NCBI RefSeq assembly: GCF_030814995.1
Contig: NZ_JAUSVX010000009.1
Coordinates: forward strand, 124,001 to 188,000
Reading direction: 5' to 3'
Source: Labrys wisconsinensis
Lineage (GTDB): Bacteria > Pseudomonadota > Alphaproteobacteria > Rhizobiales > Labraceae
Length of the DNA stretch: 64,000 bases
The translations under genes were made by a program, and so were the position numbers. The notes beneath the pieces were generated by a model. The model did not search any database. It saw only the letters and a list, made by a program, of their open reading frames with translations, and was not told the DNA's origin. Positions 8,283 to 41,999 of the stretch are shown piece by piece. Every line of letters starts with the position of its first letter. Position 1 is the first letter of the stretch.

Positions 8283-9479
8283 TCACGTCGTTCTTTTCTT
8301 CTGCACCATCCCGATCAAAGCCGTTACCAGCGCGACATTGACAAGCGCCACGACGAAGAGGAGAGCAAGCGTGCCCTCCGCACCCAGCTTCTCGATCAGC
8401 ATCGCGCCGATCGACGGCGACGCGGCCTGCATGATCAGGCTCGGCATCGCGATGCGGCCCATGATCGCCGCGTAGCGGTGCTCGCCAAAGACCGCCAGCG
8501 GCAGCGTGCCTCGGGCGATCGACTCGATGCCGATCCCCGCTCCGTAGAGAATCAGCGCAGCCGCCACGATCGGGACACCGATCCAGAGAAGGCCGACGCC
8601 CGCCGCGACGAGCACCGTCGAGGCGAACTTGGTCCAGATCGGATGGTGGAAGCGACTGATCGCCATCTCGATGGTTCGGGCGCCGACCTGAGAGGGGCCA
8701 ACGATGGCGCCAAGCGCGACGGCTGCGCCGAGGGCGATGTCGCGAGCCTGAAGGATGGTCAGCATGTGGACCGACAGCAGCGTCGAGATCATCGAGCTGA
8801 TGGCGATCACGAGTGCGATGAGAGCGAACAGCAGCCTCGAGTCCGCCGGCACCGCGCCGCCGACCGCACCTTCGCCGGCTGCGTGCTTGCTCTGGCCGGC
8901 GTTCTGCTTCTGCTCCTTCGGCAAGGCGAAGACATAGAGCGGCAGCAGGACGAGCAGGTGAATGGCTGCGTAGATCAGACAGGCATTCCGCCAGCCGAAC
9001 TGCGAAACGAGCATGGCCGACAGAGGCCAGCAAACCGTGCTTGCGAAGCCTCCGAACAAGGTCAGGCTCGTGATCGCCGCACGGGCGCGCTGGCCGTAAA
9101 TTCGGCCGAGCGTCGCGAAGGCCGCATCATAGAGGCCGGCCCCCATGCCGACACCGAGCACCAACCACGCGAGGACGTAGACCAGCACGTTGGGCGAGAA
9201 AGCGAGCCCGATCAGGCCGAGGGCGAGGAAAATCGCGCTCGTCGCGAGCACCGGCCGGCCGCCGAGGCGCTGTATGCGGTCGCCAACTTGCGGCGAGACC
9301 ATGCCCGCCACCAGCAGGCCAAACGAAAGGCCGCCGACGATCCAGGCCAACGGCCAGCCCGTGTCGCTCGCAATGGGCTGCGCGAGCACGGCCAGCAGAT
9401 AGTACGACGAGCCCCAGGCGAGGATCTGGCTGACGCCGAGCACGGGGATTGCCGATCGGAGGCGCGGTAGATCCGCCAT
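8283..9479 (-). CDS. MFS transporter at the end of the arsenic cluster
   Basis: About 398 residues with twelve hydrophobic segments, the MFS loop motif in the form GDRIQRLGGRPVL, and a small-residue-rich second helix, so a major facilitator carrier. It is the last gene of a leftward arsenic group, 29 bases after the flavoprotein stop. The ATG at 9479 opens MADLPRLRSAIP; the frame extends upstream but overlaps the flavoprotein tail. ArsJ (MFS exporter of 1-arseno-3-phosphoglycerate) was considered, but no GAPDH gene accompanies it. A role in efflux of an arsenic species is inferred only from position. Confidence 0.8.
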   Translation of the reverse strand: MADLPRLRSAIPVLGVSQILAWGSSYYLLAVLAQPIASDTGWPLAWIVGGLSFGLLVAGMVSPQVGDRIQRLGGRPVLATSAIFLALGLIGLAFSPNVLVYVLAWLVLGVGMGAGLYDAAFATLGRIYGQRARAAITSLTLFGGFASTVCWPLSAMLVSQFGWRNACLIYAAIHLLVLLPLYVFALPKEQKQNAGQSKHAAGEGAVGGAVPADSRLLFALIALVIAISSMISTLLSVHMLTILQARDIALGAAVALGAIVGPSQVGARTIEMAISRFHHPIWTKFASTVLVAAGVGLLWIGVPIVAAALILYGAGIGIESIARGTLPLAVFGEHRYAAIMGRIAMPSLIMQAASPSIGAMLIEKLGAEGTLALLFVVALVNVALVTALIGMVQKKRTT

Positions 9480-37220: not shown

Positions 37221-38895
<1,675 letters not shown>

Positions 38896-38948
38896 GGGAG
38901 GCAGGAGGCCGCCCGGCGCTGCGTCGTGCCGCGCCGGGATGGTGCGCG

Positions 38949-39461
38949 TCAGCGTCCGGCGAGAGCGCGTCCGATCCTGGCGATCGCGGCATCGAGGGAC
39001 ACGCGCCCCGGCCCCCAGGCCATGATGCCGAGCGCCATCGCGGCCCAGGTGAGATGGATCGGCCAGCCCTCCGGCACGGTCAGCTCGACGATGGCGGTCA
39101 TGACCAGCAGCCCGAGGGCGGCGAAGCGGGTGGCGAGGCCGAGGACCAGCAGCACGGGAAAGACGATCTCCGCCGACCCCGACAGGAAGGCCATGACGGC
39201 CGGCGCCGGGAACGGATAGGGCCCGCCGGGCAGGTGCAGCTGGAACTCGTCGCTGAAGAGATAGATCGCCGTATCGTTCAGCTGCAGGAAGCCGGCCCAT
39301 TTGAGGGTTCCCGATTTCCAGAACGGAACGGCCAGCGCGACGCGCAGGACGAGCTGCACGAGGGATGGCTGGGCGATCCCGCGGATGATCCCGATCGCCC
39401 GTTCCAGGACTTCGGCGGTCCGCCCGGCGACGGTTCCCCCGTTCGCGGTCATCATCATCAT
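38949..39461 (-). CDS. DoxX family membrane protein, bufferin operon
   Basis: 170 residues, four helices, with the DoxX pattern (FWKSGTLKWAGF..., SAEIVFPVLLVLGLATRFAALGL). It starts MMMM; GGAGA lies 7 bases upstream. The start overlaps the DUF2063 gene by four bases, and it closes the bufferin operon as it does in many relatives. A role in membrane redox or metal homeostasis is likely but unproven. Confidence 0.9.
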   Translation of the reverse strand: MMMMTANGGTVAGRTAEVLERAIGIIRGIAQPSLVQLVLRVALAVPFWKSGTLKWAGFLQLNDTAIYLFSDEFQLHLPGGPYPFPAPAVMAFLSGSAEIVFPVLLVLGLATRFAALGLLVMTAIVELTVPEGWPIHLTWAAMALGIMAWGPGRVSLDAAIARIGRALAGR

Positions 39462-40252
39462 GACGGTTCTCCAATGCGGATCGCGGTCAAGGCTCCGGCC
39501 TCGATCATGCCGGCCAGGTTGAGCGGCAGGTCGAAGCCGGCATGCAGCGCCTGGACGGCTGCGACCGCCGCGCCGAGCGGCTCGCCCTCGGCGAGCCGGG
39601 TCAGGAAGGCGGCGCCCCCGAGGGGCAGCCGGCGCACGACGACGTCGGCGTCCGGTCTGGTGACCAGCGCATCCTCGGCCTCGGCGGCCTCGATCCGGCC
39701 GACGGGGTCCATGGTGCGGTTGGCCGCGAAGATGGTCGCGGCGGCGTAGCGCGACCGGACGATCCGCGTTGCCGGATGCGGCGTGAAGGCCAGATCGGCC
39801 AGCCGCTCCGGCGGCACGCCGGCGAGCGCGCCTGGCGAAAGCGGCTCGGCGTCCGCCGCATGATAGGCGTCGAGCCATGCCCGCTCGACGCGGGCCGTAT
39901 CGGCCAGCCAGGGCATGGCCTGCGCGTGCTCGTATCGCTCGATGAAGGCGGGGAAGGCGCGGCCATACTCGAACAGGAGCGGGGAGCTCGGCGGGGTCTC
40001 GCGCACATGGAAGCGCGCCATCGCGCGGAAGAACGTTTCGCCGGTGATGCGCCGCACGGCGGGATAGATGGCCGCCAGGGCATCGACGAGGCTGACCGTG
40101 ACGTTGTTGCGGTAGACGTTGTAGCGCCTGACCGCCGCCTTGCCGTTCGGACCGGCGACGAGCGAGGGCGTTCCCCGGGCGGGATCGGCCAGGGCCGACG
40201 AGAATTCCGCCGCATAGGCCGCGTGACCGCGCCCGGCATGATCAGGCAGCAT
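39458..40252 (-). CDS. bufC: DUF2063 protein, bufferin maturation partner BufC
   Basis: 264 residues. N-terminal DUF2063 region ([39 protein letters not shown]) and a C-terminal winged-helix-like part. In RiPP systems this protein partners the DUF692 MNIO enzyme by presenting the precursor. It overlaps bufB by eleven bases and the DoxX gene by four. Confidence 0.92.
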
Positions 40253-41171
40253 GGCTCTGGCTCCGCGAGGCGTGCGCCGCGTGGCGATCGAGGATCGCCT
40301 GCGCGGCGCTCGCCTCGGCTCGCAGGATCGGCCAGTCGGGGATGTTGCTGTCCCACTCGACCAGGGTCGGCACCGGCCCGCATCGGGCGGTCACGATCTC
40401 GAAGAGCTTCCACACCGCGTCCGCGACCGGGCCGTCGTGGCTGTCGATCAGAAGCAGGTCGCCCTCGTCGTCCGCCTGCTCGGCATGGCCGGCCAGATGG
40501 ATCTCCCCGACGCGCGCCAGCGGGAAATCGGCGAGATAGTCGAGGGCGGAAAAGCCGTGGTTGGTGGCGGAGACGAAGACGTTGTTGACGTCGAGCAGCA
40601 GGCCGCATCCGGTGCGCCGGGCGACGGCCCGGATGAAGTCGGTCTCGCTCATCGTCGACTCGCGAAACAGGACATAGGTCGACGGGTTCTCGAGCAGCAT
40701 CGGACGGCGGATCGCGTCCTGAACCGCGTCGACGTGGTCGCAGACGCGCGCCAGCGTCGCCGCGGTATAGGGCAGCGGCAGGAGATCGTTGAAATAGGTG
40801 GTCTCGTGCGTCGACCAGGCGAGATGCTCGGAGACCAGCGCCGGCTCGTAGCGCTCGACCAGGCGGCGGAAGCGCTCGAGATGGGCCGCGTCGAGCGGCT
40901 GCGGGCCGCCGATCGACATGCACACGCCATGCAGCGAGACGGGGCTGTCGCGGCGGATGGTCTCCAGCGCGCGATGCGGCGGACCGCCGGCGCCCATGTA
41001 ATTCTCCGCATGCACCTCGAAGAAGCCTCTCGGCATCCCGTCGGCCAGGATCGCGGGGAGGTGCTCGTGCTTGAAGCTCGTGCCGGCGAGCGGGGCGAGC
41101 CCGGCCACTGGATGCGCCGGAAAGCGGAGGGACGGCGCCGCGAACGCGGCTGGGCTGGCGTTTGCGCTCAT
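40242..41171 (-). CDS. bufB: DUF692 multinuclear iron oxidative enzyme (BufB)
   Basis: 309 residues, TIM-barrel MNIO family (MbnB relatives). The iron ligands can be followed: [47 protein letters not shown] and VEWDSNIP. It is expected to oxidise Cys residues of the precursor to a thiooxazole-type heterocycle in an O2-dependent reaction. GGAGA lies 6 bases before the ATG. It is 43 bases downstream of the precursor gene. Confidence 0.95.
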
Positions 41172-41214
41172 GGCATGTCTCCGCTTTCCGGCGATCGTGG
41201 GGGGACGTCGGGGA

Positions 41215-41520
41215 TCAGAGCGCCGTCAGCGAGCCGTGCTTGCCGTTCGGCAAGACGATCGACTCGCACGTGCCGCCCTGGACGAACTTCCAGGAATTGC
41301 CCTGGAAATCGACGGTCGACGTGCCCTGGCAGGTGGTGCCGGGGCCGGCGGCGCAGTCGTTCTGGCCCTTCAGGGCCACGCCGAAGCACTTCTGCTTGCC
41401 GGCGGAGAGTGCCGCGTCGGCTTCGGCCTTGGTCAGGGGGGCAGCGGCGGCAAGCGTGGCGAGCGCGGTGGTCAGGGCGCCGGCCAGCAGGAGGCAGCTC
41501 GCGGTGGACTTGGCGGACAT
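41215..41520 (-). CDS. bufA: DUF2282 bufferin precursor (BufA1 type)
   Basis: 101 residues with a Sec signal peptide (about 1-27). Mature part has four Cys at 45, 56, 64 and 85 in the family pattern KCFGVA..., [14 protein letters not shown] and GTCESI. Known bufferins are exported copper-binding RiPPs whose Cys are modified by BufB with BufC. The start at 41520 follows CCGGAGAG; an upstream frame to 41565 reads into the promoter. Confidence 0.93.
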
Positions 41521-41571
41521 GATTCTCTCCGGTTGAGTTCCTCGACGCGCCGTTTCGACGCGCACTGGAAC

Positions 41572-41597
41572 TTCGGAGGCTCCGCCGGGCCCGTTAC
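41572..41597 (-). promoter_or_regulatory. ECF sigma-type promoter of the bufferin operon
   Basis: On the minus strand GTAACG (41597-41592), 16 bases, then CGAA (41575-41572), about 50 bases before the bufA start. As I recall it, the SigF promoter of Caulobacter, which drives its bufferin genes, is GTAACC-N16-CGAA; this fits with one mismatch and exact spacing. No sigma or anti-sigma gene is in the window. Confidence 0.55.
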
Positions 41598-41690
41598 GGC
41601 CCTGCTTTCACTAGTCCGTGAGTTCGGCGTGACCCGACCTGGACCATCCCCGCTCTCGGCCGGATCGTTTGCCGGCGAATTTTCCCGGGA

Positions 41691-41999
41691 TCATCCCTCC
41701 CCCGTTCCCCGCGACCGGTCGACATGGCCGAGGTCCCGCCCGGGGTCGAGGCGGTCGCGCACGAGCTGCTTCAGCGCGCGGGAATCGGGGAAGCCGCCGT
41801 CGCGCTTGCGCTCCCAGATGGTCTGGCCGTCATAGTCGATCTGAAAGGCGCCGCCGGTCGCCGGGATCAGCGCCACCTCGCCGAGATCGGGGCCGAAGGT
41901 CGAGAGCAGCTCCTGCGCCATCCAGGCCGAGCGCAGCAGCCATTGGCACTGGGTGCAATAGGTGATGGCGATGCGGGGCTTGCTGGCGGGCTGGGTCAT
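41691..41999 (-). CDS. SelT/SelW/SelH (Rdx) family protein
   Basis: 102 residues. N-terminal redox motif YCTQCQW with Cys 15 and 18, thioredoxin-like fold, then GGAFQIDYDGQTIWERKRDGGFPDS, the Rdx signature. The Cys-containing version of selenoprotein W. Probably a cytosolic thiol-redox protein. It is upstream of and divergent in function from the bufferin operon, 94 bases past its promoter. Confidence 0.88.
   Translation of the reverse strand: MTQPASKPRIAITYCTQCQWLLRSAWMAQELLSTFGPDLGEVALIPATGGAFQIDYDGQTIWERKRDGGFPDSRALKQLVRDRLDPGRDLGHVDRSRGTGEG

Follow-up and report, generated by a model that had tools for sequence, protein, structure and literature searches.

A 64,000-nucleotide stretch of the Labrys wisconsinensis genome (hereafter called the window) carries an operon for a Buf1-type bufferin, a peptide of a widespread and recently described class of ribosomally synthesised and post-translationally modified peptides (RiPPs), whose switching-on has been less studied than its chemistry. 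We give a probability of about 0.8 to the reading that this operon, probably acquired together with its own promoter for an extracytoplasmic function (ECF) sigma factor of group ECF16, is read by the sole ECF16 sigma factor of its host, the gene of which is unlinked to the operon. The host genome (G000; 8.93 Mb, 55 contigs, listed as 100% complete) was analysed within a set of 120 genomes, i.e. itself and 119 relatives.

Genes and predicted products of the operon

The operon occupies positions 41597-38949 of the minus strand, where the promoter is followed head to tail by bufA, bufB, bufC and doxX (Table 1). The family models, the order of the genes and the conservation of iron ligands all support its assignment as a standard Buf1-type bufferin operon, in agreement with the first-pass annotation. 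That annotation had described a 101-residue DUF2282 precursor with a signal peptide and four cysteines, and the family model recovers it well above its cut-off. BufA has cysteines at positions 9, 45, 56, 64 and 85; Cys9 lies within the presumed Sec signal peptide, judged by eye from a charged start, a hydrophobic stretch and an end rich in Ala, and the mature part has the four others. With 21.9 bits, the precursor stays under the cut-off of the BufA2 model (60). Its SNSWKF-like and HGSL segments, initially regarded as its own, are not peculiar to it, similar versions being found in other precursors of the same clade.

BufB is the only multinuclear non-haem iron-dependent oxidative enzyme (MNIO) of the genome. 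The iron ligands expected of this DUF692 enzyme could be located by alignment with TglH, for which nine ligands are given (PMC10880893): seven have counterparts in BufB (E161, D194, N197, H225, D243, H245 and E272), while TglH His71 and His107 fall outside the alignment. We propose H81 and H116, identical to histidines in 3bww, as the equivalents of these two. A phmmer comparison of BufB with PDB sequences gave eight matches, headed by 3bww (130.6 bits) and including TglH (8hci, 62.5 bits) and MbnB chains. The overlapping DUF2063 partner and the DoxX gene were also correctly announced: from the coordinates, bufC shares 11 nt with bufB and 4 nt with doxX, the start of doxX being uncertain among four consecutive ATG. 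BufC (DUF2063) has no match to solved structures at E 0.1.

In Buf1 bufferins, a disulphide links the first and last cysteines and the modification falls on the central ones (PMC12452194); by analogy, Cys56 and Cys64 are the expected modification targets in BufA. BufB and BufC would oxidise them to thiooxazoles, a Cys45-Cys85 disulphide would form, and the peptide would exit via Sec and sequester periplasmic copper. Copper binding, peptide modification and induction are here inferred from characterised relatives. The operon could alternatively be a SigF-controlled bufferin operon that serves mainly against chromate, cadmium, gold or oxidants rather than in copper handling. Dichromate and cadmium are stimuli for Caulobacter SigF (PMC3511200), bufferin clusters include the gig operons, which gold induces (PMC12452194), and the Labrys sigma factor falls in a branch found beside hypochlorite-defence genes (see below). 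We nevertheless regard such a main role as unlikely, since the Caulobacter Buf1 bufferin chelates copper and aids growth in excess copper (PMC12452194).

Table 1. Positions of the operon, its surroundings and the unlinked sigma factor locus (window coordinates unless a contig, C, or locus, L, is named).
Feature	Position	Strand	Description
-35 element	41597-41592	minus	GTAACG, preceded by C; exact to (T/C)GTAAC of the ECF16 consensus (PMC8315932)
-10 element	41575-41572	minus	CGAA; 16 bases past GTAACG (17 past GTAAC), 51 bp ahead of the bufA ATG
bufA	41520-41215 (with stop)	minus	Buf1-type (DUF2282) bufferin precursor, 101 residues; PF10048 78.4 bits (cut-off 22.4)
bufB	41171-40242	minus	MNIO (DUF692) bufferin maturase, 309 residues; PF05114 (MbnB_TglH_ChrH) 351.6 bits, NF050167 BufB 378.5 bits (cut-off 310)
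bufC	40252-39458	minus	DUF2063 partner, 264 residues; PF09836 85.2 bits, above cut-off
doxX	39461-38949	minus	DoxX-family membrane protein, 170 residues; PF07681 64.0 bits, above cut-off
Stretch missing in G001-G004	38877-41713		Between hemB and the SelT-like gene; contains the whole operon and promoter (blastn)
hemB-type gene	37903-38895 (start approximate)	plus	Left neighbour; protein 80-83% identical in G001-G004
SelT/Rdx-like gene	41691-41999	minus	Right neighbour; protein 74-79% identical in G001-G004
sigF	C14:132067-132636		ECF16-like sigma, directly before nrsF; 398 bits, next best relative in genome 43 bits
nrsF	C14:132666-133277		NrsF/DUF1109 anti-sigma, directly after the sigma gene; PF06532 221.5 bits; only NrsF of the genome
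Site-bearing DUF1223 paralogue	C14:131180-131914 (L126:3678-4415)	minus	

Probable insertion between hemB and a SelT-like gene

The operon is flanked by a hemB-type gene and by a gene which, from its CXXC start, we take to be SelT/Rdx-like. These two neighbours adjoin in all four same-genus genomes examined (G001-G004); with boundaries that vary between genomes, their blastn homology to the window ends at 38867-38876 and restarts at 41714-41718. On the hemB side of the insert, the last HemB codons differ, by eye, from those of the relatives. At the other edge (window 41691-41713), also by eye, the SelT-like protein extends seven residues beyond the stop of the four genus relatives.

The MNIO phylogeny was built as a quick tree of 96 rows and a careful one of 50 of these, which we selected. 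BufB belongs to a clade of nine (support 100/100) with three genomes carrying three other family codes of the same order (G094, G114 and G028) and five Burkholderia/Paraburkholderia records. The four genus mates hold other DUF2282 operons, the MNIOs of which lie elsewhere in the tree, and a grouping of BufB with these four own-genus MNIOs, named after the quick tree had been seen, is rejected (approximately unbiased (AU) test, 5e-73). An exact ECF16 site stands 42-58 bp before bufA at eight of the nine loci of the clade; the locus in G028 has no exact site, and the G028 genome has no NrsF match. Because the site is empty in four genus mates and because of the MNIO tree placement, we conclude that the operon was probably acquired horizontally, along with its own ECF16 promoter.

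An operon ancestral in the genus, which L. wisconsinensis has retained and the four mates have lost, is an alternative for which the insert itself offers some arguments. Its GC content (0.703) is no different from that of the surroundings, and base composition was thus dropped as an indication of transfer; the longest repeat at the insert edges is a single 8-mer. Moreover, a broken second DUF2282 copy lies on another contig (C11:1397-1598) and is 76% identical to the window bufA over 204 bases, so that this operon type has been in the lineage for some time. Ancestry appears quite improbable to us, however, with the MNIOs of the mates' own DUF2282 operons placed elsewhere, their joint grouping with BufB rejected, and the flanking genes directly adjoining in 4/4 mates. 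The C11 copy was also considered as a working paralogue and ruled out: C11:1427-1498 covers only model positions 2-26, the remainder is frame-shifted and lacks the last Cys.

A different arrangement was observed in Burkholderia sp. H160 (L159), where sigF is flanked by two bufferin precursors on opposite strands (near 1316, plus strand, and near 8321, minus strand), some 7 kb from each other; an exact ECF16 site precedes the start codon of either one by 54-55 bp.

Predicted control by the unlinked ECF16 sigma factor

The site upstream of bufA is supported as a predicted SigF (ECF16)-type promoter by its exact consensus, by the presence of a single, unlinked sigma-NrsF pair and by the co-occurrence of such sites with NrsF. 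The motif GTAACG-N16-CGAA (41597-41572), which the first-pass annotation had already reported upstream of the operon, does have one mismatch to the Caulobacter SigF promoter (GTAACC-N16-CGAA; PMC3511200), as was said, but the mismatch does not hold for the ECF16 consensus, (T/C)GTAAC-N17-CGAA (PMC8315932), to which there is none. GTAAC-N17-CGAA occurs once in the window, for 0.03 expected (mean of 100 shuffles).

The absence of a sigma gene next to the operon, and the suggestion to look for a SigF/anti-sigma pair elsewhere in the genome, both proved justified, as one ECF16-like sigma gene was found beside one nrsF, on contig C14 only. This contig belongs to the genome: the gene adjacent to nrsF is found again in G001-G004, at 78-80% identity. 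NrsF of L. wisconsinensis has Cys131 and Cys181, and Cys131 and Cys181 are also the two cysteines tested in Caulobacter NrsF (PMC3511200). Envelope stress would act on the membrane anti-sigma NrsF via these two conserved cysteines and release SigF, after which SigF-RNA polymerase would initiate transcription a few bases past 41572.

The search for further sites, also proposed initially, returned eight GTAAC-N17-CGAA sites in the genome. Three are properly placed, namely the bufA site and a divergent pair of GTAACC-N16-CGAA form between the ECF sigma and DUF1223 genes of C14. Of the remaining five, those on C1 and C10 fall within genes of the opposite strand, that on C7 has no near start, that on C13 abuts a start codon and that on C11 is 218 bp away from the closest likely start. 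The latter, a GTAACG site at C11:1362-1387, was considered as a promoter and taken as chance, since it points away from the broken DUF2282 copy and its likely start is 218 bp downstream.

Among the 120 genomes, DUF2282 is present in 72 (87 copies) and NrsF is above cut-off in 35, weak NrsF matches in G040 and G047 being counted as negative. A site was counted when exact GTAAC-N17-CGAA was within 250 bp upstream of DUF2282. Such sites precede 13/27 DUF2282 copies in NrsF-positive genomes vs 0/60 in NrsF-negative ones or, by genome, 13/20 vs 0/52, and the 13 site-bearing genomes span seven family codes. With other spacers (N12-N22 without N17), there are two sense matches in the NrsF-positive genomes, both N16, and none in the negative ones.

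Several observations weigh against the reading taken as a whole: (i) GTAAC-N17-CGAA is not enriched in the genome, with 8 sites vs 21 for the backwards control; (ii) no exact site precedes 14 of the 27 DUF2282 copies of the NrsF-positive genomes, these including GTAAT or CGTA variants (G004, G031, G061, G088) and the broken Labrys copy; (iii) the compared genomes are related and non-independent, so that the Fisher p of 1e-9 for the counts by genome is only a guide; (iv) the Labrys NrsF is under the NCBIfam equivalog cut-off (163 vs 300); and (v) BufC and DoxX are under the cut-offs of the HvfC (NF050145, 36.4 bits vs 142) and HvfX (NF050144, 61.2 bits vs 80) models. The first point led us to drop the genome-wide count as a proof of the promoter, which is thus supported by placement and conservation only.

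The promoter match could then be a coincidence, the operon being read by the housekeeping sigma factor or another regulator. The eight occurrences in 8.9 Mb, fewer than in the backwards control, and the five chance-like sites would be in line with this, but the bufA site is unique in 64 kb and well placed, and such sites precede DUF2282 only in genomes with NrsF. As for the housekeeping sigma factor, no sigma-70-like promoter was found in 38800-41800, where, however, only 0.1 would be expected by chance. A coincidence is thus very improbable in our view. Control by an ECF sigma factor other than that of C14 is hardly credible: the genome has eight further ECF-like matches at E < 0.001 and ECF promoters can overlap, but the best of these matches reaches 43 bits vs 398 for the C14 sigma, and the bufA site is of the same form as the pair found at the C14 sigma gene.

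Sigma factor branch, candidate regulon and relation to known systems

In the careful sigma tree (72 sigmas, i.e. 74 minus two long rows), the Labrys sigma clusters with those of Phyllobacterium sp. KW56, Chelatococcus reniformis and G009 (support 99/89). These three all adjoin YedZ-type genes, and two of them also DUF1223 genes and MXKDX-type open reading frames (ORFs); in G009, there is a bufferin precursor without the site. The sigmas of the four genus mates lie elsewhere, and their grouping with the Labrys sigma, again named after a quick tree had been seen, is rejected (AU 2e-131). In the hypochlorite defence of Brucella, a sigma factor of this type controls MsrPQ and an MXKDX protein (PMC8315932). 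The surroundings of sigF were compared by tblastn with named references, the clustering of all ORFs having been dropped as it gave mostly spurious frames in high-GC DNA. At the Labrys locus, the DUF1223 gene is clear (197.5 bits); downstream of it, a small Met/Lys/Asp-rich ORF (L126:3268-3567, minus strand) is weakly MXKDX-like (19.4 bits vs a cut-off of 41), and YedZ was not found in the 10 kb examined around the sigma gene. By its sequence, the Labrys sigma thus groups with the SigF branch found beside hypochlorite-defence genes, and not with the branch of its genus mates.

DUF1223 occurs in 112/120 genomes. We looked for the exact site up to 350 bp upstream of the match at 51 DUF1223 loci (48 distinct copies; the G089 copy on C72 has only 44 bp upstream) and found it at six, all second paralogues, in L. 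wisconsinensis, three of its genus mates (G001, G002, G003), G072 and G107. The other 45 loci have no exact site, and two extra DUF1223 copies of G092 have none in the stretch fetched. The second DUF1223 paralogue is therefore put forward as a candidate member of the ECF16 regulon; a search of the open-access literature for DUF1223 gave no paper on sigma factors, as judged by title or abstract.

ECF16 control of bufferin operons is already published for Caulobacter (PMC3511200) and Sinorhizobium (PMC6180224). The Labrys system resembles the SigF-NrsF regulon of Caulobacter crescentus (CC3254-CC3257, CC2907-CC2905) in its DUF2282-DUF692-DUF2063-DoxX order, its GTAACC-N16-CGAA-type promoters and its NrsF-type anti-sigma with Cys131 and Cys181 and, as for CC2907-CC2905, in having the operon away from sigF (CC3253, by numbering) (PMC3511200). 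It differs in the sixth promoter base of the window operon, a G, in the MNIO, which belongs to another clade, and in the sigma factor, which clusters with sigmas that have YedZ, DUF1223 and MXKDX-type genes as neighbours. In Sinorhizobium meliloti, a DUF692-DUF2063 operon (SMb20527-SMb20530) is likewise driven from GTAAC-N17-CGAA by the ECF16 system RpoE7-EcfR7, but it is divergent from the sigma gene, whereas the Labrys operon is on a different contig; expression was not raised by H2O2, cadmium or chromate in the experiments described there (PMC6180224). The BcrS-AbcS (ECF16) system of Brucella melitensis, with bcrXQP, shares the promoter consensus, the anti-sigma family and a Met-rich MXKDX protein beside the sigma gene, but has MsrPQ in the operon and is hypochlorite-induced (PMC8315932). 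The Labrys sigma locus has, instead, DUF1223 and the MXKDX-like ORF, with no YedZ in the 10 kb examined, and the bufferin operon would be a further candidate target; the text of PMC8315932 contains no mention of DUF2282 or DUF692. Finally, the surveyed Buf1 clusters, in which sigma and anti-sigma genes do occur, also have a DUF2282 precursor with four Cys (of Sec type, as presumed for BufA), a BufB MNIO, a DUF2063 partner and DoxX (PMC12452194); the window operon, known here from its genes, is no different in kind.

One tentative extension is that the bufferin operons of this clade move as promoter-bearing cassettes, taken up by the ECF16 sigma of each host. L. wisconsinensis lacks the SigF branch of its genus mates and has a hypochlorite-branch sigma; because of the type of this sigma, we propose that the acquired copper-sequestering RiPP could be wired to a reactive-chlorine response with DUF1223 and the Met-rich peptide, in one periplasmic anti-oxidant and copper regulon. 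The trigger might be the stimulus of the SigF branch found elsewhere beside hypochlorite-defence genes, a step that we hold with lower confidence than the others of the proposed mechanism. Speaking against such wiring, the bufferin operons of Caulobacter already share their control by SigF with a YedY-type gene (CC2748), so that these kinds of targets are not exclusive to one sigma (PMC3511200). We found no paper tying a hypochlorite-type SigF to a bufferin operon in the open-access literature, most subscription papers being outside that search.

Although the known link between ECF16 sigma factors and bufferin operons limits the surprise, our results add to the earlier reading of this DNA the probable insertion between hemB and the SelT-like gene, the changed sigma branch and a DUF1223 paralogue with the same promoter, the latter being a recurrent candidate in ECF16 regulons. 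With an operon that close relatives lack at the same place, a promoter conserved in its clade and a resident sigma that is unlinked and comes from another branch, L. wisconsinensis offers a natural experiment, which makes it testable whether a copper-binding RiPP could have been brought under a hypochlorite-type sigma factor by promoter capture alone.

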